From the NCBI GenBank assembly GCA_030581615.1, contig JAKTTT010000001.1, forward strand, positions 310,001-374,000: a stretch of DNA of 64,000 nt, written 5' to 3'. The number at the start of each line of letters is the position of its first letter. The first letter of the stretch is position 1. Positions 271 to 62,911 of the stretch are shown here, piece by piece. The position numbers and the translations under genes were made by a program. The notes beneath the pieces were generated by a model that saw only the letters and a program-made list of their open reading frames with translations, was not told the origin of the DNA and ran no database searches. This DNA comes from Alloascoidea africana (taxonomy: Eukaryota; Ascomycota; Alloascoideomycetes; Alloascoideales; Alloascoideaceae).

Positions 271-2772
271 TTATGTACGTCTTTGTAGCCGATAATGTTG
301 CCTCTGTTGTTGGAAATTAAGATCCATATTGGACTGTCTCAACATTTCGTCAAATTCGTTTGTCTTCTTCCTAACCATTCGAACCATCAGTCCTTGCTTC
401 TTTTTGATGAATTTGAATTGTTCATCAGTTGTCTCATCATTATCTGGACTACCATGATGCGATGATGATTGTTGAAGTCGATAAGGGTCGTTTTCATCGT
501 TATAATCCAATCGCATTCCTGGGGCAGAAGTCATGCAATCCACTATTACAAAAGGCCCGTTTCCATATTTCGGCACAACTTTTGTCAAGATGTTTCTTGA
601 TTCATCACAGCACATTCCATAATAAACATCCATGAGAATTGAAACAGTAACATCCCGTAAGTTTTCTTCACGCAGTTGTACATGCTTCCATATCGTCTTC
701 ATCATATCCATGGTGTGTGGACTATTCAGCTTCTGTTGTTGCTGCTGCTGTTGTTGTTGTTGCTGATAATGATGATGGTGATAAGATTCTGATGGACTTA
801 GATGATTACCAAACCCATGGTATGATTTCTTGTCAGAGTCTTGAGTCTGTGTTCGGACCACTTGACTGCTACTGGTGTTTGCAAGGCACTCAGAAGGTGA
901 ATGATCGAGAACTGTTCGAATAACCCAAGCACCAACAGGGGCATTATTGTTTGTTTTATCGTTATAGCTACCAGGAACCTTCTAAAGAAATTGAGAGTGT
1001 TAGATAAAGCAAAAAAAAAAAAAAAAAACTTGGAAACGAGAAATTCATACCTCTTTTGCAACAAACAACATCTTATTACATTTTTTGCAGCTGTAAGAGA
1101 AATTCGCACCTAGAGAACCACTCCCACTGGACTGGCGTTTCCCTGTTCCTGCGGTAGAAGAATCCACCAAATCATCAGTTTCAAAATCCAATTCGGAATC
1201 ATCCAACGGCACGTTGCCATTCTTCAATCTTTTAAGACCCTTGGCACGCATTTGATACAGCATGACACCGTTTTTCGCCGTATAGTACAGCCACATGCCA
1301 AATTTTGCAGAGTCCGGATCTCTGAAATAGTTACCTGGATGTAACTCCAAGTTGGCCAAACATTGCTGAAACCAACTTCTCGTATCTTGGGAGCGTGCGT
1401 CATAGCCATAGCCATAGCCTCCATATGGAAAGAAGCTGTCAAGGGTGAAAGGATCAACAAGGCGGGTTTCAATGCCGTCTCGTGTCTTTCTGTAATACGT
1501 TGTTCTGTTTTGTGGTTGCATGTAAGATGATGTCTGCGCACCTGGAGAAGGTTGTTGGAGGGACTGCTGGTTCAGAGTTAAAGAGGTTGAAGAGTTAGGA
1601 CTTGGGTAATCTTTCCTAAAGTACTGGTTATGTTGTGAGTCAGGTAACAGGGATCCTGTAGAGCCAGGTTTTGAGGAAAGTTGGGCCGAAGGGGCTCTAG
1701 AAGAATATGGATGGAAGGACTTGGATCTTGGTTTCCTTGTTGTACTGGAGGTCATGGCTGAGTACTTTGAACTTCTCTTTTGGTAGGCCTGGGTTGAAGA
1801 TCCGGATAAAGAGTGATGATGGCTTTTTGGTGGAAGAAGCGATACATTCAAATCGTGTGAGGAACAAGTTGTTGGGTGTGATTGAGGTGTAATATCAGCG
1901 TTTGTTGTGATTGCATGCTGATCGATCATGGAAGACTGCTGCGGAGAACACCCGGCAGATATGGAACCAGAAACGGACGCGGGAGTTGGGACCGATAGTA
2001 AAGAGTTTGTTATTGTTGGAGAGTAAGGATAAGAGGATGATGAAGGGGAAGAAGATGAAGAAGAAGAGGAGGAGGAAGATAAAGCAGCTGTGGTATAAGG
2101 TACAGTTATGTTTGAGTCGATACAAGAATACGAAGAAGAGTAAATGTTGCTAACGCTGGTATTCATAATCGTACTTGTACTTGTACCAAAGTCTTCCGTA
2201 TTATTATTATTATTGGACAAGGAAGTCACGGACTCTGGAGGACTGGCAAGACCAGGGGGCACAAAGATAAAGTTTGAGACGGAAGAGGGAGAGAAGGAGG
2301 TTTGGTTTGCGGCAGAGCAGGAGGAAGAAGATGTAGAAGAGGAAGAAGGAAAGGAAGGGGAGCAGTAAGGATATATAGCAGTGGAGGTTGAACCCAGGTC
2401 CTGCTGATGAGTATGTGGCGGGTTAATAATGGAAGTCGCGGGATGATTGGGATTGTGACCTCCAAAGTCGGGGCATGGGTATGAGTAAGAAGAGAGCGAG
2501 GGCGATGAGGAAAGAATATCGGTTGGAGGTTGTAGGTACGACGAGGATGCGGATGACGATGACGATGGCGTAGAGTTCATGCCCAAGCCCATGTTCATGT
2601 TCAGGTTCAGCATGTTGTAGTAGTCGGAGGACGAGGAGACGAATAGAGGGTTTTCTTCCTGGGTCTGGGAAAACTGGAGGCCTCGCTGATGTTCGTGACC
2701 AAGTTGCAAGTGTTGTGGTTGGCGTTGTTGGTGTTGAAGAGGGCCTTCTGTCCTGTCATTATTGGATGTCAT
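271..2772 (-). CDS. Family gene A: putative zinc-binding (FAR1/WRKY-GCM1-like) regulator, 2 exons
   Basis: Two exons, 2772-1051 and 981-271, joined over a 69-base intron (GTATGA donor, CTAAC branch point, TTTAG acceptor, phase 0), give about 810 residues. Residues 1-460 are low complexity (Ser, Gln, Asn, Pro, Tyr). The conserved block starts at W467 (WFQQCL), continues with SAKFGMWLYYTAKNG and NFSYSC, and carries C562 and C565. Exon 2 adds AWVIRT and then H601 and C606, completing a C-x2-C ... H-x4-C set. A polyglutamine run precedes the C-terminal block (SPHTMDMMKTIW, then VSILMDVYYG). The arrangement recalls FAR1 or Aft1-type zinc-binding DNA-binding domains, so a nuclear regulator is inferred. 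In the C-terminal block the first Cys seen in the paralogues is Ser. The start is the first ATG below a TATA box. The gene is certain; the function is tentative. Confidence 0.88.
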
Positions 2773-2913
2773 GATGTCGGATTATGGAGAGAGAACCGGC
2801 GATCAGGCAGCACTTGAGGAAAAGGATGAATAGCAATTGGGTCGTGCCAGCTGGACGAGGATGGACTTGGAGAAGAAGAAGAATGGAGAACAGTTCTTGC
2901 AGGCTGGAGAGAG

Positions 2914-2921
2914 TATTTATA
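2914..2921 (-). promoter_or_regulatory. TATA box of gene A
   Basis: TATAAATA on the minus strand, about 142 bp before the ATG of gene A. Boxes at comparable distances precede the other four family members, which supports the chosen start codons. Confidence 0.6.
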
Positions 2922-3874
2922 TCAAAACGAGAAGCAGCACGGCTGCCTGGGGCGGGTTCCTGGAGCGGGTCTTCTAACCGGTGTCAAAAGCACCGACCGT
3001 TCGCAGCGCTTCGGGTTTTCTGCCGGCCCGCGTCGCTGCGGTGCAGATGCAGATGCAGATGTTGCTATGCATGCATATCTATGGTGTATGCATGCATGGA
3101 TGGATGGAAATATATGCACCGCCATGCATGGGTAAGAAGAAGCTGATCAAGATTGACCGTTGTTCTTGCGGGAGAGCCAAGTCCCAATTCGTATATACGG
3201 AAGATGACAATTTTAATATTTTTGAAAGGAGCAACAACTATTTGAGTGAGTGTGTTCTTTTTTTGGTCGTGGCGGTTGTTTTTGTTATCATGGCCTATTC
3301 TTGTGTTATTATTGTGAACATGGCGATTCACCAATTCACGATTCATTTTTTTACTTTTCTACATTTCTATTCTTGGCTTTTTTCTCTTGATTCTTGAATT
3401 CTGAGACATTTAGCCTAGGCACCACCAACCACTGTATATATTTTTGACTTTTTTGTAAATTCTACTGTTTAGTTAGTGTTGGACAGATACATACATGAAA
3501 GACAGACGGTCAGCAGAACAGATCTTAGTTTCTGAATCCACATAGCATGTACACAACAAATGAGAAAAAGAGACATGCTTAGAAAATGTGATGAATCGTA
3601 AAAAACCTGCGAATTCTGTTTTCTTTTTCTGATTATTATATTGATCATCTCTAGTTTCGTGTGTCTCCAGTTGAAGAGAAACATGAACAAAAAAGTGGCC
3701 TTTACCCCAGGCCATGTGTGATAAAAATAAGATTGTAAGTGCCAAAAGTTCTAGATCTTTTTCTTTTTTTATTCTTCTTGTATTGTCATGTTCTTGTCCA
3801 AGGACTCATTCATTTCATTTTGGGAAACATCAAAATCTTAATACTTATTGGGTTGGGTTGTTGGACCCCTCCTA

Positions 3875-3896
3875 TATCTATCTATCTATCTATCTA
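3875..3896. repeat. TATC microsatellite
   Basis: About five consecutive TATC tetramers in non-coding sequence. Confidence 0.8.
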
Positions 3897-4282
3897 ACCA
3901 TCCTGTAAATGTAGTTGCAGCACGTTACTTTGAAGAATCTCTAACCAGTTATCACAACGAAAAACTAAAAAGATTGGTAACTATTAGATTAGAGTGGTAA
4001 GGTTTGGCTTTTCCAGAGGTTATTTTGTCGATATTGCAGAATACCAAATTCTTGCTTCTTGGGGGGCGCTTTCACATTCGCTCGCTTACTCCAACTCTTT
4101 CAAAGTTTAAACATGTTCTCTTGAGTGTCTACAATTTGACGTTCACAAGGGTTCTGCCGGCATGTCTCATAATCATTTTAGTTTTATTTCAGTTCTAGCC
4201 TTTTCAGGTAATCTGGCACAGTATCCAGGGACGATGATGACAGGAACAAGAACAACAAACATCATCATGATGGATGGATTAA

Positions 4283-4315
4283 GATTTGGGATTTGGGATT
4301 TGGGATTTGGATTGG
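4283..4315. repeat. GATTTGG heptamer tandem repeat
   Basis: About four copies of a seven-base GATTTGG/GGATTTG unit, running into a G tract. A related GATTTTG array lies at 8394-8420 in the same intergenic interval. Confidence 0.75.
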
Positions 4316-4783
4316 GGGGGATCCTTCTCCAGTCCAAACTCCGCCCTGCAGCAACAACTCCAACAAAATCTTGTTTCCTGTTTTGTGATGGATCACAACC
4401 AAAAAGCCAAAAAACACTGCCAAGAAATGCAGAACAAGAAGTTCAGTCAGTTTTGCTAGATGATTCCACCTTTTGCTCTATCTATCATGATGAACCATCA
4501 CAATCACCCCCCCTCGTAATAAGCTTAATTGGAATTGATCGATCGTATTGTGGATATTCCTTCTAGGCGCTCTAGTTTGTTTTCTGTCCATCTAGAAAAT
4601 GTTCAAAAATGTTGGGAATAATCAGAATAAAGACTTGAGTATTTGAAAAAGAGTATTGCGGTGATTCGGCAGAATCTAATGCCTATATTGATGAATCGAA
4701 TCCAGATTCCAGTATATTTAGAACCCATGGTTTTCTCAATATTGATTACCCCCTTCCAGGGTTTCCTTATTCCATATTCCATA

Positions 4784-4829
4784 TTCAATTTCAATTTCAA
4801 TTTCAATATTAATCTCAATCTCAATCTCT
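4784..4829. repeat. TTTCAA / TCTCAA hexamer repeat
   Basis: A run of hexamers that changes from TTTCAA units to TCTCAA units along its length, about seven units in all. Non-coding. Confidence 0.75.
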
Positions 4830-5739
4830 AGATTTTTTTTTGAATTTCAATTTCAGTTCAGTGCATATAAAGTTTGTCCATTTAACTTTTACAACTAACC
4901 ATAGAGATTTTAAGCAACATATAGCACATCCCATCAATATTTTCATTATACTTACAACAAGATCCCTGGATTTGCATTGCATCTCTCTTCTTTTGATTTA
5001 CATTTTTACGTTTTTACGTTTTTGGATTTTGCGATGCGTGGCTTGGTGTGTGGCTTACCCGCCCAGAGAGCTCCCTCTTTTACTTCCCCTCGCTTCGCGA
5101 GAGTCATCCCCATTGGGATTCGAACTGATTGGAGCCTGTCAAATCAAATTGAGAAGACCCACGAAATGTAAACTAAAGGTGATTCAGAAATGTGCTTGTT
5201 GTGCATCTGCATATAACATGTGTAGCTTCCCCATTGCTATTATCTGGTCTGCTTAAAAATATTGGAGCCTGTTGATCATCCAGATATAAGCTCTGGGACT
5301 GGGTGTCATGGCAAGGCTCGAATCGGGCACAAAGTAGAGAGTAGACCGTGAGTGTATGGAAATAGAGATGGAGTGGGAGGAGCATTGAGCACTTTGCACA
5401 ATGCTCAAAGTGTCGTCGTGTGCGTTTTGGTCCCTCATCTTCTTCGTTCATCACGGCACAGCACAGCACAGCGGAGCACATTCGAAAGTGATGAAGCAGC
5501 AGGGATTGCATGCACGCTGCGGCGGTTCAGATACGAGTCGCTCCAGCTCCAACTGGAAATGAGGAGGAAGAGAAAGAGAAATAGAAAGAGACAGATGGTG
5601 CTGGGGTCTCGGTTGCAAGATCCAACCAACGCCATCAAGCTACGCTGGAAAGTCTATATGGGTGTTGATTAGAGCATTCGGTCCCTGTGGACAAGCACTC
5701 AGCTACGCAGCTACGCAGCTATTCAGCAATCGCATAGAT

Positions 5740-6560
5740 CTAGAGACGAAAAATGGAATGGAGATACGGGGGAAATTCAGGCGCAGGGCGATGGCAAAAA
5801 GCAACGTCCATGATTAGAGCAAGGAAATAAGTTAGAACGAATGATAATACCAGCATGGGTGGATATTCGGCCGCTCTTTGCCCGAGACGCGAGCGTCGAC
5901 GCCGAGCAGGACACCGAGCAGGACACCGAGATCGAGGCCGTGTGGTTTCTGCTTTCTGCTCGCTGGAGTCTGCTGAGCGCCATCTCCTGGCTGCCACACT
6001 CCAGGGCTTCCCCGGGATCTCGTGAAGGAGTTGTGCAGGTGCAGGTGCCGGTGCTGGAGGGACCGGATCTCCTTGTCGGCCGCCCGGGATTTGCTGAGCT
6101 GTGCAGAGTATGGCTGGGTGCAACGCTCCCGCGTAAAAGCATAACTTCTCTGTGACTTGCACTTGGCTGCGGCGGCTCCATGTGCGTGCGCCAGCGAGTC
6201 AGAGCCCGTGGAGCAGAAAAGAGAAAGGGCGAGAGCATTCCGACTGCCCCCTCTTTTGCCTGATGTGCCCAGTTGGGAAGTTGCAGTGCGATTGCGGCGC
6301 AGGTGCGGTACGCGTGCAGCGCGGGTGCAGTGCGGGCGCAGTGCGGCTGCAGCACGGCTGCGCTTCTGGCTGCGCTTCTGGCTGCCTCCTGTTGTCCTGG
6401 CCGGCCTCCTTCTCGCGGGATCTGGATCTCGAACTCGCCTGTGGCTGGTGAAAACGCCGAGTAATCTAAACCAGAAACAAGCACTCACTCGCGCAATGGA
6501 TCCAAGAACAAGCCGAAACCTTGGGCTATTGTCCTCGCCGCCTTTTGGCTAATAAGTACA
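5740..6560. other. GC-rich island with 12-base tandem repeats, no supported gene
   Basis: This stretch is much richer in G and C than its surroundings. Several reading frames on both strands are open at once, the longest 235 and 218 codons on the minus strand. Their translations are rich in Arg, Ala and His and look like the product of few stop codons in GC-rich DNA, not of selection. Short direct repeats occur: a CCGAGCAGGACA unit near 5902-5930, GTGCAG/GTGCGG units near 6300-6350, and GGCTGCGCTTCT near 6356-6386. It could be a promoter or regulatory island or an old insertion. I do not call a protein. Confidence 0.5.
6356..6386. repeat. GGCTGCGCTTCT direct repeat
   Basis: About two and a half copies of a 12-base unit inside the GC-rich island. 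Confidence 0.7.
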
Positions 6561-8393
6561 TCTCGGCTTGTCATTTACAAGGATGCTAAACACCTCCAAG
6601 GATTCCTTTCATTTACGAGGTTAGCCCAGACTTGTGTTCTCATGCACGAATGCAGACCACTCTCTGGTGAACGTGAAAGTGTTACAATGCATCATCGTAA
6701 AACAGCCATCCATCCAAGGTAGTATATATTGTGAATAAAAGAGCATTGAATAGAAGAGTAACTGGATATTGAATGGCCCAAGGCTCTTGTTGTTTGCTGT
6801 TTGCTATTTGCTACCCCACATATCGACTCCAGTGCAGAAAATTTATTACTTCTTACTTGTGCTTGTATATACTACAAATGGCCTGCCTTTTTGGATGTGT
6901 AATATTTGCTCTATATAGACAAGGAGAAAAAAAAAAAAGCACCCAGTTTATCCTCTTCCAACCCACTGCTGCAACTCCGCAGAACTCTGCAAAAATCCCA
7001 TGTGGGATCGAAGCAGCATTTTCTGGGTCTGTTGCTCCTACTTGTGCTCCATGTATCCCCCATCTCCTCCCATCCATGCCTTGAAAATATACGAAAACTC
7101 ACAGCTGCTGTGAATTTTCTTTTTGGTTTTTTTGCTGTCTTGGCTTGGATTTCCTTTGCAAATTGACATCCATCATCCCGTTTCTTTTCTAATCCTGCCG
7201 ATCCCGATCCCGATCGCCTTTTGATTGCGTCTGACTCTGATTACATCTTGACTGGTGATGAAATCAACAAACCGGGAACCTAAGGCGAAAGAAACGGAAA
7301 GGCTAAGGGGAAAGGCGCCATAATAATGGGAAGCGCCGTATCGGCGTCTAACAGGCGCAACAGGACAGGAGCCTCCACATCACATAAACGATACGGCTTT
7401 CCTGCTTACTTTGTGGATGCCTCCTGTTCTACCACCGCTTGCTACACTATAGGGTAGCATTAGCCGGTCCAGAGTCCTCAACACTGCTATAACCACCATC
7501 ATCACCAGTTGAACCCTCTGGAACCACACGATAGAGGATCAAGTGAACAAAGATAATAAAACCTTTGCTGGGTTTATCATTTTGAGCCCCTGTTACTAAA
7601 TTTTAATAGACCAAGTAGCTAGTAGGTATAACAACCACAATACATGTAGATCACCCACCAAGCTTCCCCCGAGAGCCGCTCTTGACCGAGGCAATCATCC
7701 TCTTTCTTTTATTTCTATATTTTCTAATCATCATCGGGGTTTCACTGCTTAGATAAATGCACCCTCTAAACTTTCCTATTCTCCACTATTCATTTCTGAA
7801 ATTGGACATCTCAAGGGTTATTTGTCACTTGCGTTTGCCTTGCGAGGGGAAGTCAGAAGTTAGAAAAATGTCTGGTCCTGCTCGATCCACCGCCATGGAA
7901 GTGTGCCAAAACCAGGTATTTAATCTACCAAAACTCATATTTTTGTTTTTTTGTTTTGCATGACCTGCATTTTCCAGGATGGCGGGCATTCTCTTTGGAA
8001 CATTATAAGTTCTACAAGGGGCTGTTCATCTTCTGCACTACACTTTCCCATGAAGTGGATGATGAAGAGATTGTAAGTTTTTGGATATCTCGCTCTGGGG
8101 GGTTTGGCCAAAAGGGTAATTCGTACTTGGACGCGAATGAGACACGTTCGAATGCATCGGCATATTATTTCATGCGAAACTCCTCCTTTGTCACCCCCAA
8201 ATTATATGTACTATACATCATTTATCACCAAAAAATGAGCTTTACGAATATGCAAGCATCCAGGCCACTTTTCATTGGCAATTAATTGATTATAATCATA
8301 GTATGATAAAAAAGTGCATTTTTGTGTGTATCGTATTTTATATTATAGTCTTGCATCTTGTCTCGCTGATCTTTAGTGGTCTTTCACTTTGAC

Positions 8394-8420
8394 GGTTTTG
8401 GATTTTGGATTTTGGATTTT
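8394..8420. repeat. GATTTTG tandem repeat
   Basis: Three to four copies of a seven-base unit, similar to the array at 4283-4315. Confidence 0.7.
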
Positions 8421-11298
8421 AAATTTTCTTTGGCTTCCACCCTCAACAATCCCTAATTATTCTGCTGTTAAGTGACCCTAAAGCTTAGCTTTCACAATTT
8501 GGCCCAATCAATTCACTCTGCATTCTTCTCTCCCTTATCTTTTCATCTCTCCGAGGACCCGCAGCCCTTACATTATTAATCAAAAGGCGATGAGCATGTG
8601 GGCAGGTACTCCAAGATCGAGAAAAAAAAAAAAAAAGAAACTCGCTTTATTATCGTGACTTGACTCAACTCGACTTGTTACAACATTTATAATCCATTTA
8701 ACGGCTATTAGGGACTACATTTTTCTACTTAATTAAAAAATATGATATTCATTATTTATTTACCTTTCAAACCGATATAACGGACGAAAACAAATTACAG
8801 TGTGAACTATTATAATCCCAATCACAGTTAGATTTATCGGGTTTTTGTTAATGACTAGTAGCTCCTCGAGATCTAATACACTGGCTGCTTTATGAGAAAC
8901 TGAAACAAACCGGTGGCTGTCAGAGACAAGAGCTGGCCTATTTAGAAATTTACAACCTACAATATAATACAATACAAAATAATTTTTAAGTCAGTTGAAA
9001 AGTTTAATGATGTCATGAGAAGCATATAAAGAGCTTGTAAACCTGCCACCTAGAACTACCACATTTTCAATTACAGAACACATGTTTTTTTTTTGGTTTT
9101 TGTTGTTGTCAATCCTTGTCTAAACAATCTATGGTACTAACTCCACGAGATTCGTAAATAATGGATGACCTTTGTCACTGGTGTCGCAAGGACATTCGCA
9201 ACACGCCTCGGAAAGTGTCCCCTATTGTCGATTTGTCAGCATAAACACGCCAAAAGAAAAAAAAATATATATATATTAGATAGCATAGAGACTAAGAGGG
9301 GTTGACCCCAGACCGGTCCACATGTATTGTTCCGAATGACAGGAGAAGGGCATGGCTGAGCATAGAAATGCTCTTGCAAAAGAATAAAGATTTGAAAGTT
9401 TTGTTCCGTTTTGGTCAATATGTAGATTAACTTCTAATGGCATCCATATTTATCCCAGATCCACAGGGTAGATATCAAAAAGAAAGGTAAATCGAACAAA
9501 TTGGAAACCTCTGTGTAATTGGTATGATGTGCCCGAAACATACAAATGATCAAAAAGAACAATCAATAGCCAGGTAGAGAAGAATGAGGGAAGGAAGAAC
9601 AATCTGGTTCTTCAGATCTCACACCACCAAAAGGCATTTCCGATCCTACCATCATCGCTTCCGTAGACGCCCACTCCCAATTCTTCTCTTTTTTTTTTTT
9701 TGGTTCGCCATTCGCGGTTGAGACAGACAGGCAATCCAATCAGGCGATGGCCAGGTTTCAAAATGCTTGAAAGGAGCTTGGAATAATCCAAACACATGCC
9801 ATGCCAATTTTTTGTTTAAACACATCCAAAAGGGTTTCAAAGTGGAAAAATTCCCGGAAGATCAAAAAAATATTTGAAAAATTTGTGTGGTGTGGGTTCA
9901 GATGACCATTTACTTTTCTGGTTCAGCTTTACCTGCTTTTGATTCCAATCCACTAACCAGTAGTTAATAGAAAGAAAGACAAAAAAATTGCAATCGGGTA
10001 TATGAATTTAAAAAAAATGCCTTGCTGATGTTGGGAAGAATATCATGATGATGTGCACTGATAACCAATTGATTCTTTCAATTCATTTCTCATTTTAAAT
10101 GGATTATGTAAATTAGCGCACTTCAAAGTCCCAACTAATGTTCTACGTATAAAAAAAAACAGGTTTGGTTGACAAGAGCAATCAGAAACAAAGACATGCT
10201 GTATGCTGTCAATAAATATCGTCTCATACACAATACTTCCTTAGCAGCGTTGCAAAAACGGACACAGGTGCTCTGTTCGTGTGAAGACATACGCTACGGT
10301 ATAAAATGCAAGTGGTAACGTATTGACCACACCCCTCTTGCTCCTACTTGTCTCTTGAGAAAAGATATTCATTTATCTTTAGGAAACTCGTAAATGTTCT
10401 CATTTATGGACAAGAGAATTGAAAAAAAGCTGAGGGCTGGATCAAGAGTGAAAACAATCAACAGAATCTATACAACTCCAGAACGATATAAAATGCACCC
10501 GTGCATTTCTTTTTTTGGCATGAGATTTTCTTAGTGATCGTCTACGTACTGAGTGTAAATTCCTACAGACTCTTTTTCTTATCTATGAATAAATATCTTC
10601 AATTCCTGATCTCCCAGACCGTTATTGGTCTCAAATAAGAAGTTATGTGCAGTCTATTGTTCATCCACACATTTTATTACGACCAATTCAAAGCTCGACG
10701 TGGAGATAAAGAGCGGTGTTGAAGCTTGATAATCCTAGCCCCCTTTCTCTCTTTTTTTTAATTCGCTTCCCTCCGGATCGGTCTTCTCAACTGTTTCACC
10801 CAATGGTTGTTGGCCCGGCAGCTCTCCAATTGACACCCTAGATGCGGCATTTAAATTTGATAGCTCTGGTTTATACTCTAAAGTGGTCGGGCTGAACCGG
10901 GTGTCTCTGGTCTGTTGGACTGAACAGGATTGGACCGGACCGTTGAGATCCAAACTGACAGATTCCTCCTGCCTTTACCTACAAGCTTCTCCAGTCCTTG
11001 GGGTTTGAGCTTTATTGTATAGTATTGATGGCATTCACTCTCCGCGCTGGTTATCTACAAGCTTGCTAGCTTCCTCCATATTTAGCTGCTTATCCCTTTC
11101 AATGCCGTTAATACAGCCTTCATTCCATCCTCCTAGAAACGTAGGCGACGATCTTTTCAATCCCAAAACGACAGACAGAAAAAAAAAACATAAACTTGTA
11201 ATGAGATTAGTTCAACGTGCATGACGGTAAAAAGTGACAAAATTCAAAAAATCAGAACCCCTGAAGTTTAACTAAGGAATGTGGCACGCCTTGAATTT

Positions 11299-11334
11299 TC
11301 TTTTTGCTTTTTGCTTTTTGCGTTTTGCTTTTTC
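11299..11334. repeat. TTTTTGC tandem repeat
   Basis: Four to five imperfect copies of a seven-base TTTTTGC unit in non-coding sequence. Confidence 0.7.
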
Positions 11335-14300
11335 TATTTTGCTTATTGGGGTTTATTTGGAGAAATACAGGCATGTCCTTTTTTATGCAAGCGGTGCGAT
11401 GGAAGAGGCAACAAATCGTGAAGTGTTTAGTTGTTGATGTTTCATTTCCCAGGCCAGGAGGTGCCAACACAGAAAATGAACTGCCCGGCCTTTGCACCTT
11501 GGGAAATTAACGCGGTCTCATGCATGGAGTGCGCGAGATGCAGCGAGTCGTAAATCGTCAGCCGTGCCAGGATCCGTGTGCAGTCCAAGGTACGCTTTCT
11601 CGCGCCGTGATTGGCTCGTTGGCCGGGGGAAATTACGACAGAAACACGAGATGGGTGCCCAAGCAACAGCCACTTGCTTGTCGCAGATGCAAGGCGCCAG
11701 CCGTCCTTTCCTGCATCCAAACGCCAGGTCCATGATTCCCCTTTCTTGTGGGCAGTTTTCTCCTACAAATGCTTTACAGACAAGGCATGGGAGTGGGAAA
11801 CGCATGAAGGCTAGTATTTCCTAAAGCCAGGAACTCTCTCTGCTGCCATCCATTATCACCAGCTATACGTACTTCAGGTACTTATGCCCAGAACAGAAGG
11901 ACAATTAAGCGAACAATTGCTTTTTATTTTGTTTTATTTTTTTTTTGATGCAATTGAAAGGGAATTAGAATTGGAGAACCCATACTCCCCGAATTTTTGT
12001 TCAACTACAACCTTGTCACCGCTACAATCCTGAACAGGAAGGTTCTAGATTTATTCTCTTCCAACGTTCAAATCCAATTCCAATTGCAATTGCAATTTCA
12101 AAAGCCCACAAGCATGAGATATTACAAAGCTCGGCGGGCTCTACCTTTATACGCATTCAATTTTTGACTATTAGGGAAACGGTCGGACATTGATTTATTC
12201 ATCCAACCCTTAAGAATAAGAAAGGATGGGCAATACAGGAACAAAATTCTTCTACAGGCGTAATTATCCAATTCCTTTGAGCCATAGTTGCCAGGTCGAC
12301 ATAGACCACAATACTAACATGACTGGGGGATTACAGAATACAGAAAGCCTCAGCACAAGCTTCCGATACACTGCCAGTGGCAACATAATTGTTTGAAAAA
12401 TGGTCAAGACCTTTTCTCCTTGCTGATCCATTGAGTTGGAGCCAGCGCCAATGCCAGTCTCGGTACCCACTGAATAATAAGACTCATAGTTTTACGGCAT
12501 GTTTATAGATCGTTATCTCAACCCGAACCTCTTTAGCGTAATATTCCCCTGTCAGGTTCCTCAATTGTTCCTGGAGTCCGACCCAAATTTCCAGATTTCC
12601 CGAAGTATGCTTCTATCTGTTTTACATCAACAGGTTTTTTTTATTATTATTTTTTCTGTTGGATTAGTAGAACTAGTGGTAATCATCTGTTGAAAATGGG
12701 CTGGCATATAGCCTACCATTCTGTTCACACTGTCTCTATTCTAGCAAAAAGTTTATTCATTGTATATGATAATCATCGCATAATCTTCTCACAGCAGCGC
12801 AAAAGTCCAACGCCCAGCAAACCGGCCATTCATTGAACGGCTCTTTTCCGATTTTAACGAATGAAAAATAGAATTTAAATGAGTAATAGGAGTGGGATGA
12901 TGCCAATATTCGTAGCGGAATCGCCGCTTCTTGTCGTATAGTTTGTCACCAGGATAATATGTGTGATGCAGACATCTTCACGGCTAGGATCAATGCAATT
13001 TACACTGTCATGGAAGAGACAAGACCGTTGGCAATTGGGATTAGAGTTACAATAGAGATCTGATTATACATGATTTTATCAAGCATCACTTTATTCATTT
13101 TATTCTATTGCCTTTGTTTAATCCTGGACTCCAATGTTGTTGGATTTTTTCCGTTCCGGCTTATCCTTGATTGGATCGGCATCTGATTAGATAAATCAAT
13201 GTAACGAATAATCCACAACACCCCTCTCAAAATGCATCATCTAGTTTTTCCAACCGAGATAAACGTACAAATTACCCCGAACCCTGTGAAAAAGTAATTG
13301 GCCAAAGAACTAAACCCAGATAGAACCATCGGCTGACTCACGCTTACTTCTTAGTAAATCTGATAGAAAATAAACAGAAATTGAATACGAATTGATGATT
13401 CTCATTGTTATCCTGGACGAGTGGATCAATTCAGAATTTAATCCAGTGCCTTTCAATAGCCGTAAGGACCGAAACCAGACATGACTCCCAACGTGGATGA
13501 TTCTATTGATAATTCTGTGAATTGGAACATTCCAGAACGTAAATCGAATGTTCCACGGGGAAATTCGATACATCTTTAACTGGTATTATCTTTGTTTTTT
13601 TGACCTTTGCCCGGGGATTCCTCTGCCCATCCCCCTATTTTCTTTTTGAGCTCTTGGTGTTCCTATGTATGTGCTATTTTTACGATTCAAAACCGCAATT
13701 GTCCAACGAGAGGCTATCTTCTCGTTGTGTGTGTTTACACACATTGCGAGGCAGTTCTCTGATTTACAACATCCTCATTCTTTTTATAGAAAAACTACAA
13801 ATGGGTCACATGAAAAACACAGGTCAAGTCGATCTTTCGTTCACCACCATTGCGGGGACCAAAAACCCTGGCAGAAAAGCACCGTTTGTTTTATAAAAAA
13901 TAAATGCATATATATGTTCTAATCCGTTTGTGAGGGGTATTTTGGGTCAACAAGGCCGAAGTAATCAGTTCGTCGCGGGTGATTTGTTTGTCATGTCTCC
14001 TGGGCGGTGACAGCGATGACCATTTCAAAAGAACTTATATAATCTGGCTTTTGTACACACGTCTCTATAGCTTTAATAGTCCAAATGATCTGCTTAATTT
14101 TGAGAAGGCTTTCAAGCAAAATGCCTTCTATGTTGTATAGATCTTGGTGCACCGCCTCTCATATTAGAGTAGAGTCTCACTTCAACCCCTAAACGACAAC
14201 CCAAACCACAATTATTAATACTATGGGGAGACGTGCAATACAATGGAATAGTTCCGCAAACTCCAGATAACGCCATAGTTCTCAATGAATGATATTGGTT

Positions 14301-15658
14301 ATGCCGAACAATTATTTTCACTTGATTGAGAAAAGACTCTATGCAACGATACGGCATCATCATCACTTTTGCGAGCCGGTCCGGTCCTTGCAACTCCTCC
14401 AGAACCAGTTAAATCAAGCGAACAATATACTCTGCATTGTGATTTAATCACACAAATTTGCTCAGTTTTTTCTTTTTCTTTTTTTTTCTTTCTGCTGTGG
14501 CAGTTCATATAAGACTCGACGCATGGAAAACCGGTAACCCGTATCTCGTTTATTAGATTCAGTTTCAGAACAAGAACCACACCGTAGATTTTACGTCTGC
14601 ATGGCGGGGCGCTCGTATCGTATACGCGGTTCGTGGATTTGTAATCAAAGCATATCATTTTTGACACCTGACGGACAGAACAGCCCGGGTCATATCAGCA
14701 GTCCGGTCAGCCGTGAAAAAAAAGTCCCCTGTGAAGCCTTGGGCATGAAGTTTAAGGTGTTAAGGGAGAATCAGATAAATGAAACCTTAAATACCATTCT
14801 CCTTTTTCCTGTGGCATATTTAGACTCATTGTTATATGCGGGGACATCAGCAAACTATTTTTAATCATTTTTTTTTTTTTTCCTTTTTAAACTGGAGAAA
14901 ACCTAGATAAAGATGATATCGCTTGATACTAATCACATTTTCTCTTAAATGTGCAATCGGAATAGCATTTACCAAACGGTTATTAATAACCTTTATTACC
15001 TTTATCGTCAAGAACACGAATTTGGCAAACAGTAGCTTAAGATTTAGAAAAAATAAAGTTCTTAGACCTGTCATTTGGGAGAAAATCGTTTTATGAACGT
15101 TTTTTTCTTAAGAAAAATTCCGCTTAACTCAATTCTCATTAATAATCAATGAATCTCCATAACAGCCATAACCTGTTCTTATCAACAAACTACTAATATT
15201 GGTCTATGTACTAGATCTATCATATGTACTTCCCACAGTTACAACGCTGAACAAAAAGCAACCAAGAAAACAAAATCAAAAATAATGAAAAAAAAAGGGC
15301 TAGAAAATGAAATAGATAGGAGCTCAAATACATGCACCAAAACCTCCTGAAACATTTTGCAAAGTGAATCGTTTGTATCTTTGGATAATAAACCTTGAAG
15401 AGAATTAATGAAGAGTAGATAAAAGAAATAAAAAAGTACACCCATATGATATAGACACCACATATACCTTTGTTTCATTCTCTGGTTTTCTAATCATAAA
15501 AGAACAAATCAAAATAAAAAAAAAACAAATGACGCTTGAAAAAACCCCCACAAAATAAAAATCCAGATTACGCAAGCATTAAAACTTTCAAAACTTTCCA
15601 GATTCCTACAGGGAGAGATTTTTCCGTTCATGCAAGCTTCATTTACGGGGGGTACCTC

Positions 15659-17525
15659 TTACCTAGTAAACTGTCGGAATCGTTTCCCAACCATCCTGTA
15701 CATCAGCTCTTGCCTTCTTTTAATATATTCAATCTCATCTTTTGCGTTCTCGGGATCAGAAGTAGAAGGTTGAGAGTCGTAAAAAATCGGACAATCACCG
15801 GTTTTTGAAACATAACTCAGACATTGTCTATCCTCATCGTACACTTTTCCAAAGAAAATATCCATAAGGATCGAGACCGTAGTCCACTCCAGATTCTCCG
15901 ACATTGCAGCACACCGTTCATGGATCATCTTTATCAAATCTATTGTATGAGCACAATTCAATTTGGCATTTTTGGAAACCTTGGGGTATGTGATGGGTGA
16001 ACAAACAGAAGAGGAATGGGACGATCGACATGAAGCACGGCGTTGTGGAGAGGTAGACAAAGGCGATGATATTGATGAATGGATGCATCGAGGCGATACT
16101 GAAGAAGCGTTACTCCTGCTCTGCAAATTCCTTTCCTCTCCTGACCCCAATCGCTTTCTCTCTAAACCTGAGCACCCAGAAGGAGCGAGGAGATCATTAT
16201 GGTGTTCTTTCATTGTTTTAATAACCCACGAGTTCATAGGAATTTCGGGGTCTCCATTTTCAACCTCGCCATTTGCTTCTGGAACTTTCTGTATACACAC
16301 ATATTAGTTAGGACAAAAACGAGTAACAATGATGCAAAGAATTACTAACCTTCTTAACCACAAAAAGCATCTTGTAACAGTTCTTACACTGGTACGAAAA
16401 ATTTGCTGGCAGATTGGCATTATCAACATCGCCCAATTTGTTACTATTGGCATACTCGTTTGAGTTCAACTCACTGGTGGGTATAGATTTGGCTCTTCGG
16501 AGCCCAGTAGCCCTCATTTGTCTTAATAAAATTCCGTGTTTCGCAGTGAAGTAGAGCCACATTGAGAACTTCGCGTCATCAATGCTCAAGAAATAGTCTC
16601 CCTGGTACATTTGTAAATCTTGGAGGCACTTTTGAAACCATTGTCTCGTAGATAACTTCTGGGAGGCACCCTGTGGAATTGACCTGCCCAAACTAAACGG
16701 GTTCTTGTATGGCAGCTTTCCCGAATGGTGCTCCGATGCCTTTCGCTTTCGCTCCAGGTGCGACGGCGAGCGCGAAAGAGAACGCGAAGAAGAGCGGGAG
16801 CGCGAGTGTGAATGCAAATGTGCATGAGGATGCAAATCCAAGCGCTGCTCGCCTGAATTTGGCCGCATGGGCCGGCCTGCACTTGCGCGTGGAGTTATCG
16901 GGATAGGGCTCTTTTCGGACCTGGGCGCTACACACGCGGCTGACGCCCAGTTTAGTCCCCCAACGGTTCCACCACCACCACCGTCAGCCCCGTTGAGAAA
17001 GTCTTCCAGCTCGAACCTTGTTGGTCCAGGGGTCGGATAGTAGTCGGTGTCAAAGGGATCCCGCCTCCGAGACTGGCGGACGCGTTGCGGGTCCTCTGTT
17101 TTCGTCATCACTATAGTGGGAGTTGGTATCGACGATGCCAGCGATGCTCCGTTCCGCTCGTAGGTCCGTGGCTTGTAGTCATGGTGATAGAAATGGTTAC
17201 TGTCCCCGACAATGGGTTGGTCGTTGCCGGCAGTGGCATTTAGGTCAAACAAACCGTCAAATGTGGGCTGTGTGCTCTTCTCGTATTGTACATAGTTGAA
17301 CTTGTTCAGGTTTGTGTCCAGCATGTTCAGGTTCAGGTTAAGGTCTGGTTCGCTTTGTCTGTTGAACTCAGAAAACATTTTCTGTTCGTGTTTCTCTGTT
17401 GGATAGGCACCTGAGCTAACCATTGAAGAAGGGAATCCCTCTAGTGTTTCGGTAAACAATTGGGTCTCTTCTGCTGGAGTTGGAAACAAGTAGCCATATT
17501 CCTTAAAAACAAACTGGGATGACAT
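15659..17525 (-). CDS. Family gene B: putative zinc-binding regulator with altered last ligand, 2 exons
   Basis: Exons 17525-16350 and 16288-15659 are split by a 61-base intron (GTTAGT donor, CCTAAC branch, ACAG acceptor, phase 0) at the same protein position as in genes A and E; the protein has about 601 residues. The N-terminus is disordered, with an Arg/Ser-rich tract before the conserved block. W296 begins WFQKCL, followed by DDAKFSMWLYFTAKHG and FSYQC with C380 and C383; SWVIKT follows in exon 2. At the expected H-x4-C the sequence is HHNDLL, so His421 is kept but the final Cys of the paralogues is absent (a Cys lies eight residues further on). The C-terminal block has CAHTIDLIKMI, VSILMDIFFG and a basic end. 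The start is the ATG at 17525, because the next ATG upstream (17765) lies above the TATA box. Function is inferred as nuclear regulation. Confidence 0.87.
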
Positions 17526-17702
17526 TACAGTAGGAGAGGATATAATACAGAGCTCACAATAATGAATTGAACATAAAATCACAAAAATTTGTACTTTTTT
17601 GATAATATGAAAAAAGTTTGGAACTATCTGACAAAAAAAAACCCAAAACAAAAAAGAAGGAAGGAAGGAAGAACCTCTAAAGTGTGCAGGAAGGAAGACT
17701 CC

Positions 17703-17709
17703 TTTTATA
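17703..17709 (-). promoter_or_regulatory. TATA box of gene B
   Basis: TATAAAA followed by GG on the minus strand, about 178 bp before the ATG at 17525. Its position argues against initiation at the upstream ATG at 17765. Confidence 0.6.
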
Positions 17710-26287: not shown

Positions 26288-27391
26288 TCAATGTGGATAC
26301 TCCGCTTCAAATTTTGATAACCTTTTTTGAATCATTCTTGAAACATTTTTCCGTCTATCTTTCATTGTTGCAAAAAACTCATCTGTTGAATTGTGCTCAA
26401 CAATAAAGTAGTAGTCACCTTCTCGGACTACTGTCGAAATTTTTTTTTCGCTGTCATCATAAGCGCAGCCATAGTAAATGTCTTGAATTACTCCTATAGT
26501 TGCTCTTTTCATATCTTCGTTACTTGAGCTAGAATTTATTCTATTTTGAACTGTTTCCATTAGATCTTGTACATGAGGACATGTTAAACGCTCCGCACGA
26601 TCTGAGGGATTCGGAGATCTGGACTGTGACATTAATGCTCTTGCTTCAGCTCTCAAAACAGTGGTCGGTTTTATACATTCGGTTTCTGGATGTGAATCTA
26701 ACCTTGAAATAACCCAGTAATATTGAGGAGTCGAATGTGCATGCCTAGATGTACTCAGATCTAATAGCTTTGCTGTGAAAAGCATCTTATCACATTTCTT
26801 GCAGTAGTACGAAAAGTTTGGAGTCTGACTTGACCCACTTCGAAGACCATCTGATCGTAATTGGCGCAGTGGGACTCCATGTTTTGCAGTAAAATACAAC
26901 CACATGGCGAATTTCATATCATCTGAAGTGACACAGAAGTCGCCCTCTCTCAGGCTGAAATTTTTGAGGCATCGCTGAAACCACCCTCGCACCGACTCAT
27001 CGGGGTAAGTAATTGCTATAAACTGATCAGGGTGGTGAGGCGTGAGGAGAATACCATGACTCGACCGGCGTGTCCTGGAAGCATGAGATCGAGAACTGGA
27101 GGGGGATTGGGACGGTATCTGGAATGAGGATGGTGATGAAGACATATCTCCAGGCGAATATGAAGAGATTGATCTTAAATCGTAAGAATTTCTGTGAGTA
27201 TGACTTCGAGAATTGGAAGGTGAACTATACCTAGGAATGGCTGAGACGGAACTAGTTATGTCCCAATTGTAGAGTTCAGAAATGTCGAAATCTGATGCGA
27301 ATGTCTTTGAAGCAGGGTTTAGTCCTAATTGATATTCGTCGATATTGAAAGAATCCTCAGCAAAGTATCTATAGTTGTGTGTATAATCCAT
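26288..27391 (-). CDS. Family gene C: intronless putative zinc-binding regulator
   Basis: A single exon of 367 residues, shorter than A, B and E and without the intron they share. Residues 1-115 are Ser-rich and disordered. The conserved block starts near F124 (DQFIAITYPDESVRGWFQRCL, W137), continues through DDMKFAMWLYFTAKHGV and NFSYYC, and carries C197 and C200. The bridging strand is YYWVISR (W226), then H234 and C239 complete H-x4-C. The C-terminal block starts at LTCPHVQDL and contains IGVIQDIYYGCAYD, ending in a basic helix near KKRLSKFE-like sequence. With gene D it forms a subgroup marked by DMKFAMWLYFTA and RSDG in place of RATG. A DNA-binding role is inferred from resemblance to FAR1/Aft1-type zinc folds, not proved. 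Confidence 0.88.
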   Translation of the reverse strand: MDYTHNYRYFAEDSFNIDEYQLGLNPASKTFASDFDISELYNWDITSSVSAIPRYSSPSNSRSHTHRNSYDLRSISSYSPGDMSSSPSSFQIPSQSPSSSRSHASRTRRSSHGILLTPHHPDQFIAITYPDESVRGWFQRCLKNFSLREGDFCVTSDDMKFAMWLYFTAKHGVPLRQLRSDGLRSGSSQTPNFSYYCKKCDKMLFTAKLLDLSTSRHAHSTPQYYWVISRLDSHPETECIKPTTVLRAEARALMSQSRSPNPSDRAERLTCPHVQDLMETVQNRINSSSSNEDMKRATIGVIQDIYYGCAYDDSEKKISTVVREGDYYFIVEHNSTDEFFATMKDRRKNVSRMIQKRLSKFEAEYPH

Positions 27392-37057: not shown

Positions 37058-37106
37058 GTTATGTGGCAGAAGAAATTAATAGTTAAATAAGGAGTTTGGT
37101 AGAATT

Positions 37107-37139: not shown

Positions 37140-37141
37140 TA

Positions 37142-37735: not shown

Positions 37736-37809
37736 TGATTCGACCCAGGATCGAACTGGGGACGTTCTGCGTGTTAAGCAGATGCCATAACCAACTAGAC
37801 CATCGAACC
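37736..37809 (-). tRNA. tRNA-Val(AAC): tRNA-Val(AAC)
   Basis: A 74-base cloverleaf on the minus strand: acceptor stem GGTTCGA with TCGAATC and discriminator A; D arm with box A TGGTCTAGTTGG; anticodon stem TCTGC/GCAGA enclosing loop TTAACAC, anticodon AAC; T arm CCCAG-TTCGATC-CTGGG containing box B. No intron. It is very close to the budding-yeast tRNA-Val(AAC) sequence as I know it. It reads GTT, and GTC through inosine at the wobble position. Confidence 0.95.
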
Positions 37810-42262: not shown

Positions 42263-42576
42263 TGCGTATGAGCAGTGTCACCGAAAACAGAGTCAGTCAG
42301 GTAGCTGTCTTGGAGTGGTATGTGTCTCCTTTAGTAGGGGGTTTTAACAGAGGGTTGTCACAAAAACTGTCGAAATTAATGTGATCCTCTGTTCCAGGTG
42401 TATAAAGCGCTTGGAAGAGGTAGTGGTGGTGGAACCAGTAGGGAAACTTTTCTAGTTTCGCTGATACTATTTCAAGTGACACGGAAATACCTGAAGAAGG
42501 GAGAAAGTTGGGAGGCAATGGAGCAAGTTATATCAAAGCTGGGGCGGGTAACTGGGAGGCAATGAATCAGTTCGAC

Positions 42577-42867
42577 TCATTTTCGATTCCAAAAATGGCC
42601 GTGCGGCTCGAGCGAGGGCGTGGCCGACTTCTCCGGGCAGCTCCCGGGGTGAGCTCCCGAGGTGAGCTTCCGAGGTGAGGACTTGTGCCAGGGAGCATCC
42701 CGAACAGAGACTGGCGGGAAGCGGCGAAAGGCTAGGTTGGCATGTGTGGACGGCCAGTTCACAAAGTCGTCGTTGTCGCGCTTCAGCTTCAGTAGAAGCC
42801 GTGTTTGTGTCTCGCTGAAGGGAGCTTCATCAGGCCTTGTGGCCCATATGTTCTTCCCAGATTTCAT
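42577..42867 (-). other. 96-codon frame upstream of the bZIP gene
   Basis: The frame starts with ATG (MKSGKNIWATRPDEAP) and lies 315 bp or more before the bZIP coding region on the same strand. It is GC-rich, and a 14-base GAGCTCCCGAGGT-type repeat (42638-42680) lies inside it. It could be a leader reading frame, a separate small gene or chance. I recognise no family. Confidence 0.25.
42638..42680. repeat. GAGCTCCCGAGGT direct repeat
   Basis: Three imperfect copies of a 13-14 base unit (GAGCTCCCGGGGT, GAGCTCCCGAGGT, GAGCTTCCGAGGT). Confidence 0.7.
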
Positions 42868-45463: not shown

Positions 45464-46597
45464 ATGTCCTTCCCGCATCAGTTTTACCACTCTCCCAGGA
45501 ACGACGACGATCAAGACGAAAACTCGGAAAGTCACAATTGGCTTCCATTAGATTATGGTTTCCCAACGAGCTGGCCTCAATTGCCACAACAGCCTTTGCC
45601 TTCGCAGCTTCAGTTTAGCGAATTGAACATGGAGCAATCAGGTCTGCCCATTACATCCTCAATAGATTCCAGTCTATATCACGGGCTTCCCACTACAGGA
45701 AGCATTGACACATCTGCGCCTATGACAACTATGGGATACATTGGAAGCCATCAAGAAGCTATTTCTAGTCACAATATCGGACATTCCTCTCATTCCCAGC
45801 AGCCTTACACTGGCCATAGTTTAGGACCCCACCAGAATGACCAAACAATGCAATCAACTTTAAATCTTGCCACAACGGTTACCCATCATAGTAGATTGAT
45901 AACACCTTTTGAACCTGGCCAATTCCTGGATTGCAGTTATAGCAGGGAACCAGTCCGTGCTTGGTTCCAACATTGCCTGCACTATTATGACCTACAGAAA
46001 GACGACTATTGTCAAGGACCAGAAGATATGAAATTTGCAATGTGGTTATATTTCACAGCACGAAATAAAGTAGAGTTGAACCAACAAAGATCAGATGGGC
46101 GTAGCTTTTCTTACCTATGCACCAAGTGCAACAAAACAGTATTCTCAGCTAAAAAGGTCAGCTCTCGTTCATCATCCTCTTCACAAAGAGATCAACAGTG
46201 GTACATAAACAGGATAGATCGCCATCATCATTACGAATGTACTCCTATTGCTCAAGAGCTAGCGAGAAGGAGGCAAGGCTCCTCGACATCATCACGAGCG
46301 TCCAGCGAGGAGCGAGCCTCATGCCGTTACATTCCCCAATTAAAGCAAATGATTGAATTAAGAATAGCATCTATTTCAAGCTATGAGAATGTTAAAAATG
46401 CGCTCACTGATGTAATTCAGGACATTCTTTATTCTCGCGCTTATGACGAGCGATCTGGGGTAGTTACTATTGTGCAGAACAACTCGGGGATGTTTTACAT
46501 AGAGGCAGTTCCGGCGGATACCTCTACCATTGAAGCCATGAGAAAGAAGAGGAGAAACGTAAAGAAAATGATTGATAAAAGGGAAAGGCCTCGTTAA
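45464..46597 (+). CDS. Family gene D: intronless putative zinc-binding regulator
   Basis: A single exon of 377 residues, starting at the first ATG (MSFPHQFYHSP). The N-terminal 145 residues are Gln/Ser/His-rich. The conserved block begins FEPGQFLDCSYSREPVRAWF (W167), then EDMKFAMWLYFTARN and FSYLC with C219 and C222. The bridging strand is QQWYINR (W246), and H254 and C259 complete H-x4-C. The C-terminal block has CRYIPQLKQMI, DVIQDILYSRAYDE and a very basic tail with RKKRRNVKKMIDKR, a possible nuclear localisation signal. It is closest to gene C and, like C, lacks the intron of A, B and E. It is the only family member on the plus strand. Regulator function is inferred. Confidence 0.88.
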   Translation: MSFPHQFYHSPRNDDDQDENSESHNWLPLDYGFPTSWPQLPQQPLPSQLQFSELNMEQSGLPITSSIDSSLYHGLPTTGSIDTSAPMTTMGYIGSHQEAISSHNIGHSSHSQQPYTGHSLGPHQNDQTMQSTLNLATTVTHHSRLITPFEPGQFLDCSYSREPVRAWFQHCLHYYDLQKDDYCQGPEDMKFAMWLYFTARNKVELNQQRSDGRSFSYLCTKCNKTVFSAKKVSSRSSSSSQRDQQWYINRIDRHHHYECTPIAQELARRRQGSSTSSRASSEERASCRYIPQLKQMIELRIASISSYENVKNALTDVIQDILYSRAYDERSGVVTIVQNNSGMFYIEAVPADTSTIEAMRKKRRNVKKMIDKRERPR

Positions 46598-61342: not shown

Positions 61343-62911
61343 TCAGGACAAAAAATATGGATTCTGCCTTAGCTTTTTATGCACCATTCGTTCCATCAGG
61401 GACTGTCTTCTCTTGACATACTCAATATCCACAGCTGTCCCATACCAATCCCAGTTGCTGTATGCTTCGTTCATATGATAATTTTGCTCTTGGATACAGT
61501 AATAATATTCCTGGTCTGAATTATTGCTGCCGGCAGCCCCTGCCCTTGGAATTACAGTCCTGGAAACAGATGTCAACCTCTGAATGCTTTCATCATAAAC
61601 TTTACCATAATAAATGTCCATCAATATTTGAACAGTTGCTTTCTCCAGGTTTTCACTCATTTTCCTAACATTTGGAAAAATCGTCTTTGTCAATTCTAGA
61701 GTATGAGGACAAGAAAGTTTTGGTTGCTGCTGACGTGTTTGAGACAGCATGGGGCTTGGAGACAAGGAACTTCGATTTGAAGAGCGAGAGGAGCCTTCTG
61801 GTACGTTCTGATTTTGAAGTGACCGAACACATTCCTCTAGAGGGTGGTCTTCGACTGTTCGGACAACCCATGTATTCGTTGGAGCATTGTTGTTGAAGCT
61901 ATCATTGTAAGAGCGGCTTATTTTCTAAAAAGGGGAAAAAAGGGTTAGCAATCTTCGTCCCATATGAAATAGTATTCTTTTTTGATAAATGGCGCTTACC
62001 TTTTTACAAACAAAGAGCATTTTTTTACAACTTTTGCATTGATATGAAAAATTGGCAGGCGTAGCATTCCCGTTATCTGGTTCTTTTGTACTCGTAGTCG
62101 GGGCCTCAGAAAAACTTTCTCCAGAAATGTCGTTTTTTTTCAGGCCAGTAGCTCTCATTTGTCGAAGAAGAACGTTATGCTTAGCAGTATAGTAAAGCCA
62201 CATTGCATATTTTGCTTCCTGATACGTCCGAAAGTAGTTGCCCGGAGATATCTGATAATTTTCTAGGCACATTTGAAACCAAACCCTCGTAGGACAAGCC
62301 ACCAAGCCGGAAGGCTCCCAGGCCGATAGATCATAAGGGTTGACTACTTTGGTCTCTGCTATCCGAAGTCCTCTTCTGGCTCTATCTGCGAAAGTCCTTC
62401 TAATTGGTTCAGGTGGAAGTATAGTAGGTGTAGATCTACTTCTCACGGCATGTGGATGTGGTGGTGGTGGGGGTTGCAGAGCTTGATCAGCCTGAATTGG
62501 TAATTCGCCAGTTTCCATGGAATAAACATTTTCGCGAAAACGGTCAAATGCGCTGGTGGTAGTGCCGTCTAGGATGAAATCATGCGCAGGAGGATAATTT
62601 GGCGCAAGCTCGCCTCCATCCCAACTATTATTGCTGGTAAAATTGCTAACATTGCTGTAAGCCTCTGAGGAGGCGATATCTTGGGAGCTCTGAGCAATTG
62701 GCTCAAAGTATTCAAGGCCAATTGGATTCCGAGGCTGGTGAAATGGAGATCCAGAGGAGCTGTGATACGATATGGTGCTCTGGGGAGAGTCTGTAGAACT
62801 GCTATAATCCGAGGCTAAGGAATGATAATGCAGCACGTTGAAGGTGCCCATATCGTCATCAGCATACTGTTGGGATTGTTCTTGGTTTGGATTGTAATTG
62901 TAATAGGCCAT
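61343..62911 (-). CDS. Family gene E: putative zinc-binding regulator, 2 exons
   Basis: Exons 62911-62000 and 61924-61343 with a 75-base intron (GTAAGC donor, TGCTAAC branch, TTTTTAG acceptor, phase 0) give about 497 residues. The intron position equals that of genes A and B. The start is MAYYNYNPNQ, six residues inside the open frame. The N-terminus is Ser/Asn/Pro-rich. W211 begins WFQMCL, then EAKYAMWLYYTAKHN and NFSYQC with C292 and C295. Exon 2 opens KISRSYND..NNNAP, very like gene A, then TWVVRTVEDH with H331 and C336. The C-terminal block starts SCPHTLELTKTI and has VQILMDIYYGKVYDES, with an insertion before KRRQSLMERMVHKKLR. It is closest to gene A. Regulator function is inferred from the zinc-binding block. 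Confidence 0.9.

Follow-up and report, generated by a model that had tools for sequence, protein, structure and literature searches.

Within a 64,000-nucleotide window of the genome of the yeast Alloascoidea africana (positions 310,001 to 374,000 of contig JAKTTT010000001.1, here C1) lie five genes, A through E, that encode a common domain with an invariant Cys-x2-Cys motif. I propose that they belong to a locally expanded and so far undescribed family of zinc-dependent regulators that bind DNA, built on a predicted sheet like those of WRKY and Aft proteins, and I put the probability of this reading at roughly 0.55. The family probably works in the same way as the known sheet-type zinc regulators.

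The proposal has each protein begin with a variable low-complexity N-terminus, which would act as an activating or repressing arm. Next would come a compact zinc domain of two helices followed by four antiparallel strands, the zinc being held by Cys-x2-Cys in the hairpin between strands 2 and 3 and by His-x2-5-Cys after the last strand. A conserved lobe of helices and a beta hairpin would close the protein, ending in a basic helix. Zinc would pin the end of the sheet, and the edge of the sheet or the basic C-terminal helix would contact DNA, broadly as in Aft2 and WRKY. Local and dispersed duplication would have given rise to copies that keep the domain while their N-termini diverge.

Genes A to E

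An initial annotation had placed five paralogues in the window, and all five are genuine: they have clean gene models, two common blocks, and matches in searches of the genome. Coordinates are those of the window.

Gene A, exon 1: 1051..2772, minus strand; a 463-aa N-terminus rich in Ser, Pro, Gln and Asn, then the first half of the zinc domain through FSYSCKKC
Gene A, exon 2: 271..981, minus strand; the Trp strand, HSPSEC, a polyQ spacer, and the C-terminal block (about 271-732)
Gene A, intron: 982-1050, minus strand; phase 0; protein of 810 aa
Gene B, exon 1: 16350..17525, minus strand; N-terminus and first half of the zinc domain (FSYQCKNC)
Gene B, exon 2: 15659..16288, minus strand; WVIKTMKEHHNDLL, without the last Cys; C-terminal block (about 15659-15964)
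Gene B, intron: 16289-16349, minus strand; phase 0; protein of 601 aa
Gene C: 26288..27391, minus strand; single exon, 367 aa; zinc domain 26663-27004; C-terminal block about 26288-26590
Gene D: 45464..46597, plus strand; single exon, 377 aa; zinc domain 45941-46252; C-terminal block about 46313-46597
Gene E, exon 1: 62000..62911, minus strand; N-terminus and first half of the zinc domain (FSYQCKSC)
Gene E, exon 2: 61343..61924, minus strand; WVVRTVEDHPLEEC; C-terminal block (about 61343-61720)
Gene E, intron: 61925-61999, minus strand; phase 0; protein of 497 aa

Each of the five has a single clean frame to its stop. The introns of A, B and E, one apiece, are of the GT-AG type, 61-75 bases long and in phase 0, and all fall at a common site directly after the CxxC hairpin. 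The first block, which ends FSYxCxxC...W...H, has 25 columns identical in all five proteins, and the second, C-terminal block, also common to all, has 6. That the genes might be pseudogenes was considered and rejected, their reading frames being clean once spliced.

A family of at least 15 members

Six-frame searches of the whole genome (23.2 Mb in 138 contigs) with C, D, E and one divergent member, followed by retrieval of the loci, found matches far beyond chance (C against D, expectation value [E] 1.5e-40) and at least 15 members of the zinc-domain family, a lower bound in that such searches score only the best candidates. Members outside C1 are named after their contigs:

A to E, in the window; F at C1:378.6-379.7 kb, about 4.6 kb past the end of the window
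C17a, C17b and C17c, at C17:272.6-279.1 kb
C20a and C20b, on C20, at about 310 and 323 kb
C2, C32, C53 and C126, one on each contig

Six of the 15 thus lie within 69 kb of C1, and three more within 6.5 kb of C17. The five copies first reported are correct for the window, but the count is too low, with a sixth close outside and nine more elsewhere; the expansion that they were taken to suggest is real, in the sense of a local one.

Might the outlying members resemble the rest by chance? Profiles were built with each of five outlying groups (seven sequences) left out in turn, C20a, C20b and C53 being omitted jointly, and 169-196 of 200 shuffles were scored per sequence. The omitted sequences scored 188 bits (C2), 132 (C32), 121 (F), 32 (C20a), 32 (C20b), 24 (C53) and 22 (C126), against best shuffles of 3.7-11.7 bits. 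With C20a, C20b, C53 and C126 all omitted, these four still reach 19.6-30.3 bits, the best shuffle 8.5. Chance similarity is rejected by these scores. The least secure member is C126, found at E 0.94, which as query retrieves only itself up to E 1; it was retained on its leave-out result (22.3 bits against a best shuffle of 3.8). A further match, at L088 (E 0.10), was discarded: the 161-aa open reading frame (ORF) there has no FSYxCxxC-type motif.

An intron at or near the common site is present in nine of the 15, the exceptions being C, D, C20a, C20b, C53 and C126; that of F is one codon off, with less certain borders. The order of duplication is not read from the family tree, because only two of its 12 inner branches have good support and long branches meet.

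The putative metal ligands

Cys-x2-Cys and the Trp that follows are invariant in all 15 members, and the last pair is His-x2-5-Cys in 13. Within this range, His-x4-Cys occurs in six (A, C, D, E, C17b, C17c), His-x2-Cys in five (C17a, C20a, C20b, C53, C126), His-x3-Cys in F and His-x5-Cys in C32. Gene B keeps the His and reads H-x4-L, the next Cys arriving at H-x9-C, and the C2 member has Cys-x-Cys in place of the pair. The initial annotation gave H-x4-C for all five genes of the window. This is right for A, C, D and E but not for B, and it is no constant of the family, which is instead CxxC ... W ... His-x(2-5)-Cys, with B and C2 as the two exceptions.

The ligands of WRKY-GCM1 domains are spaced C-x(4 or more)-C-x(20-30)-H-x-H/C, and the family does not conform to this spacing. 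D, F and C53 have several His at the last pair, so that H-x-H can be read in these three of the 15, a reading not common to the others.

The predicted fold

Two AlphaFold models were made from sequences of the window, with the introns read through in the rows for A and E. The model of gene C (256 residues, 6 rows; predicted local distance difference test [pLDDT] 78.5, predicted template modeling score [pTM] 0.77) shows the zinc domain with its helices and strands, followed by a C-terminal lobe in which helices and a beta hairpin lead to a long final helix. That of the D zinc domain (104 residues, 5 rows; pLDDT 79.7, pTM 0.67) has helices at 5-15 and 27-42 and strands at 46-49, 55-60, 66-73 and 86-92. 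Both agree in the order of elements, two helices and then a four-stranded sheet. In the D model, C60 and C63 are in the hairpin between strands 2 and 3, and H95 and C100 come after strand 4, which would bring all four to one end of the antiparallel sheet, as a single zinc site needs. In WRKY-GCM1 zinc domains, four or five antiparallel strands form a sheet that has a single zinc site at one end, and the predicted strand order and ligand positions fit this topology.

A fold search of the PDB with the D zinc-domain model yielded nothing at E 0.001 or below, and neither did one of a viral library. Among the best 50 of 561 PDB matches at E up to 10, the highest query-normalized TM-score (TMq), 0.43, belongs to the Aft2-DNA complex 4lmg, which stands at rank 18 with a nonsignificant E of 0.84; its second chain is at rank 50 with TMq 0.40, and the identity is 17-18%. 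The initial suggestion of a FAR1/WRKY-GCM1-like fold is partly supported: the predicted topology agrees with it and Aft2 has the highest TMq of the 50, but the match is not significant.

Relation to known zinc domains

Pfam does not identify the family. Longer pieces of seven members (A, C, D, E, C20a, C32, C53) had no match over the cut-off, and the 15 zinc domains none below E 0.01 (the best being 0.01); WRKY, FAR1, AFT, FLYWCH and GCM are not listed in either set of scans, which followed A, B, E, F, C17a-c, C2 and C32 in exon 2 as far as the end of the zinc domain. With its Cys-x2-Cys invariant and no identification by Pfam, the family is indeed an unrecognized one, as had been claimed. Searches of PDB sequences with four family alignments were no more productive: A3 had no match, A1 a best E of 1.2, A7 one of 0.23 (a fly zinc-finger protein), and the profile of the C-terminal block (A2) one of 0.24. 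Pattern-based scans of prokaryote and viral collections found no relative, and a limited search, for a family without a searchable name, turned up no paper naming it in a title or the start of an abstract.

By hhalign, P is 0.54 against Aft2 and 0.055 against a WRKY domain. HMMER, given the family profile and eight outside sequences, scores none convincingly: 7.0 bits for the TFIIS ribbon (reached by 3 of 500 shuffles), 6.2 for that of RPB9 (5 of 499), 3.3 for Aft2 (10 of 480), and at most 2.2 for WRKY (within the shuffles). A home-made profile scorer gave z 6.8 for one WRKY sequence, 2.6-4.8 for four WRKY sequences printed in the PDB, 2.3 for Aft2, 1.7-2.3 for the ribbons and 0 or less for pieces of GCM1 and FLYWCH, where 26 unrelated control chunks reach 2.6 in local mode. 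The kinship with WRKY that this might suggest is not counted, since the traceback misaligned the Trp and His and HMMER reversed the order with the same alignment. As a claim of sequence kinship, the likeness to FAR1, WRKY and Aft is not supported: no Pfam match is accepted, the hhalign values are those just given, and HMMER favors the ribbons. I conclude that sequence does not decide between a relative of WRKY-GCM1 and an independent zinc fold.

In WRKY domains, as is predicted here, a hairpin of a four-stranded sheet holds one Cys pair and the second ligand pair comes behind the last strand, and the RSYYKC of WRKY resembles the family's FSYYC; but the family has no WRKYGQK, its ligand spacing is different, and Pfam sees no match. 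The FAR1/MULE domain (PF03101) has a helix ahead of the sheet and W and H near the end but differs in Cys spacing and last pair, and no transposase part was found in the member pieces scanned. Searched against the genome up to E 10, the FAR1 model had no match, and it was absent from the members, but it matched nowhere in the controls either. Of the iron regulators Aft1/Aft2 (Rcs1; Pfam AFT, PF08731), in which a CDC iron-sensing motif follows the domain, the Aft2 structure 4lmg has the highest TMq of the best 50 fold matches, with 18% identity over 82 columns. By eye, a helix, an RSD segment (in C and D only), aromatic-x-Cys, Cys, Trp and His follow one another in order. Aft2, however, has Cys-x22-Cys ... 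His-x-His, where the family has Cys-x2-Cys ... His-x2-5-Cys; the Aft2 ligands are taken by analogy with ScAft1, for which PMC4161868 suggests Cys143, Cys215, His239 and His241. AFT is found in none of the 15 zinc domains and, up to E 10, nowhere in the genome, a genomic negative that is not firm, as the control genomes were prokaryotic; the Aft2 piece itself scores 136.7 bits with the same model.

A tentative extension of the proposal, which I consider possible but doubtful, would make the family a separate zinc-dependent DNA-binding class, not WRKY-GCM1 by descent. It would combine a CCHC sheet with the C-terminal lobe, its fourth ligand drifting in spacing and sometimes lost, and would have become a regulator family by local duplication in one yeast lineage.

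An alternative view takes the module for an ordinary zinc ribbon, or for some other small fold stabilized by zinc, serving protein-protein contact in a co-regulator or scaffold rather than binding DNA. The HMMER scores of TFIIS and RPB9, the highest of the eight, speak for it, as do three named zinc ribbons among the weak Pfam matches (best E 0.01) and a knuckle, aromatic-x-Cys-x2-Cys on a beta hairpin, of just the ribbon kind. Classic zinc ribbons have two Cys-x2-Cys knuckles. The second pair here is mostly His-x2-5-Cys, however, two conserved helices precede the sheet, and no zinc ribbon is named among the best 50 of the 561 PDB fold matches. I judge this view unlikely, if not by a great deal.

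Mobile elements

It may also be asked whether the domain was captured from the DNA-binding domain of a MULE-type transposase, the family being a domesticated derivative that is still amplifying. The genome does have MULE transposase matches, with open frames at L002 1069-2862 (597 codons) and L004 400-3009 (869 codons), and in one MULE ORF a region of the C...C...H type can be seen by eye ahead of the core. Part of that region, however, gives P 0.27 by hhalign against the five-member profile, its profile score is ordinary (reached by 44 of 400 and 33 of 486 shuffles), and no transposase family, core or remnant, appears in the member pieces scanned with Pfam.

Proximity to a repeat is the other point in favor. 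A repeat of 1.1 kb, at 36033-37141 of the window, has perfect inverted ends of 35 bp and remnants similar to a pogo/Fot1 transposase. It occurs in at least 40 places in the genome (40 of 61 candidates scored), a count reduced from 46 matches after four end matches of 25 bases and a fragment of 103 bases were dropped and two pieces joined. C20a, C20b and C53 have copies at distances of 282, 1403 and 289 bases, where 0.17 would be expected within 2 kb of the 15 genes. The naive Poisson P of 7e-4 is understated, because the 40 places are a minimum and C20a, C20b and C53 form a single subfamily. For each of the remaining 12 members, the nearest listed copy is 8.3 kb or more away, or the contig has no copy, and the repeat belongs to another superfamily than MULE. 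Capture from a transposase is improbable.

Architecture, selection and the role of the family

From the zinc domain to the C-terminus all 15 proteins are basic (isoelectric point 8.7-10.0), with 7-13 Lys/Arg against 2-7 Asp/Glu in the last 40 residues. Their N-termini are 34-60% Ser, Thr, Pro, Gln, Asn and Gly, and acidic residues outnumber basic ones there in 13 of the 15, all but B and C126 (whose N-terminus is incomplete). In the young pair C20a/C20b, the domain is better conserved than the N-terminus. Over the last 185 aligned codons the nonsynonymous and synonymous rates (dN, dS) are 0.020 and 0.081, a ratio of about 0.25 (17 changes in 555 bases), and over the part before them 0.122 and 0.148, a ratio of 0.82 (46 changes in 393 bases). 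A domain kept while the N-terminus drifts is the pattern of a module that binds DNA or a partner and carries disordered arms.

I infer from all this that the proteins bind zinc and DNA and regulate genes. The initial annotation called them regulators, and as a description of architecture (long Ser/Pro/Gln/Asn-rich N-termini and a basic conserved region) the word is apt; the role itself is likely but unproven, and for a role in transcription, predicted from that architecture, the odds seem somewhat better than even. That the genes are not regulators at all but encode, for example, RNA-binding or structural proteins with a zinc-stabilized fold gains from function being argued from architecture and from the lack of a solved-structure match for the two-lobe model or the C-terminal block profile, but is very improbable, as a basic conserved region, long low-complexity N-termini and local expansion are, as general knowledge has it, more typical of transcription regulators.

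Several results weigh against a family of WRKY/Aft-like DNA-binding regulators. Neither Pfam nor the PDB sequence searches identified a DNA-binding family, HMMER ranks the TFIIS and RPB9 ribbons over Aft2 and WRKY, and the GCM1 and FLYWCH pieces do no better than shuffles with the home-made scorer. The Aft2 match has a TM-score below 0.5, and 17 matches of other folds rank above it by E-value. The two-lobe model has no PDB match at E up to 0.001; weak fold matches include cereblon (two-lobe search of the PDB) and an aldehyde-activating protein (viral library), both zinc-binding proteins of the beta-tent fold. Gene B is without the last Cys and the C2 member without the His. Finally, the contrast in dN/dS comes from 17 domain changes in a single pair.

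If the genes are regulators, then a transcription-factor family of at least 15 members goes unnamed by the annotation library searched, and pipelines that depend on this library would miss part of a yeast regulatory network. With its copies clustered and diverging, the family would offer a good opportunity to observe how a set of regulators arises, and would reveal whether a zinc site of the WRKY-GCM1 kind can accommodate Cys-x2-Cys / His-x2-5-Cys ligands.

The surroundings of the genes

The family copies were said to be interleaved with unrelated genes, and so they are: between them lie genes for a Bul1-like arrestin, a D-serine dehydratase, a YTH-domain protein and a bZIP-like protein that falls slightly short of the Pfam cut-offs. 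A rough hand count of nameable genes, which may miss intron-rich ones, puts the coding share of the window at about a quarter. Two long intervals, 2773-15658 upstream of A and 17526-26287 upstream of B, have no convincing gene. A tRNA-Val (AAC) is encoded on the minus strand at 37736-37809, about 0.6 kb from the transposon remnant.

GC-rich islands, peaking at 62-68% GC where the window as a whole has 40%, are found at window 5651-6700, L059 4201-5050 and L060 2501-3200, upstream of A, C17b/C17c and C2, respectively. Another, at L088 301-1200, is beside an alcohol-dehydrogenase-like ORF, and weaker ones are at window 11451-11850, 16551-17300 (within gene B) and 42401-42900. Because of those at L088 and elsewhere in the window, such islands are not unique to the zinc-domain family.

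A fragment of the genome's RNA polymerase II subunit RPB2 has its best PDB matches in 5x4z (Komagataella, 742 bits), 1i3q (S. cerevisiae, 739 bits) and 3h0g (S. pombe, 711 bits), in keeping with an ascomycete and probably a budding yeast. Elsewhere in the genome, the RNA polymerase beta-subunit family Rpb2_6 has four matches (on C9, C71, C11 and C6), where three are expected, for Pol I, II and III. The fourth is possibly a duplicated subunit gene or a diverged allele.

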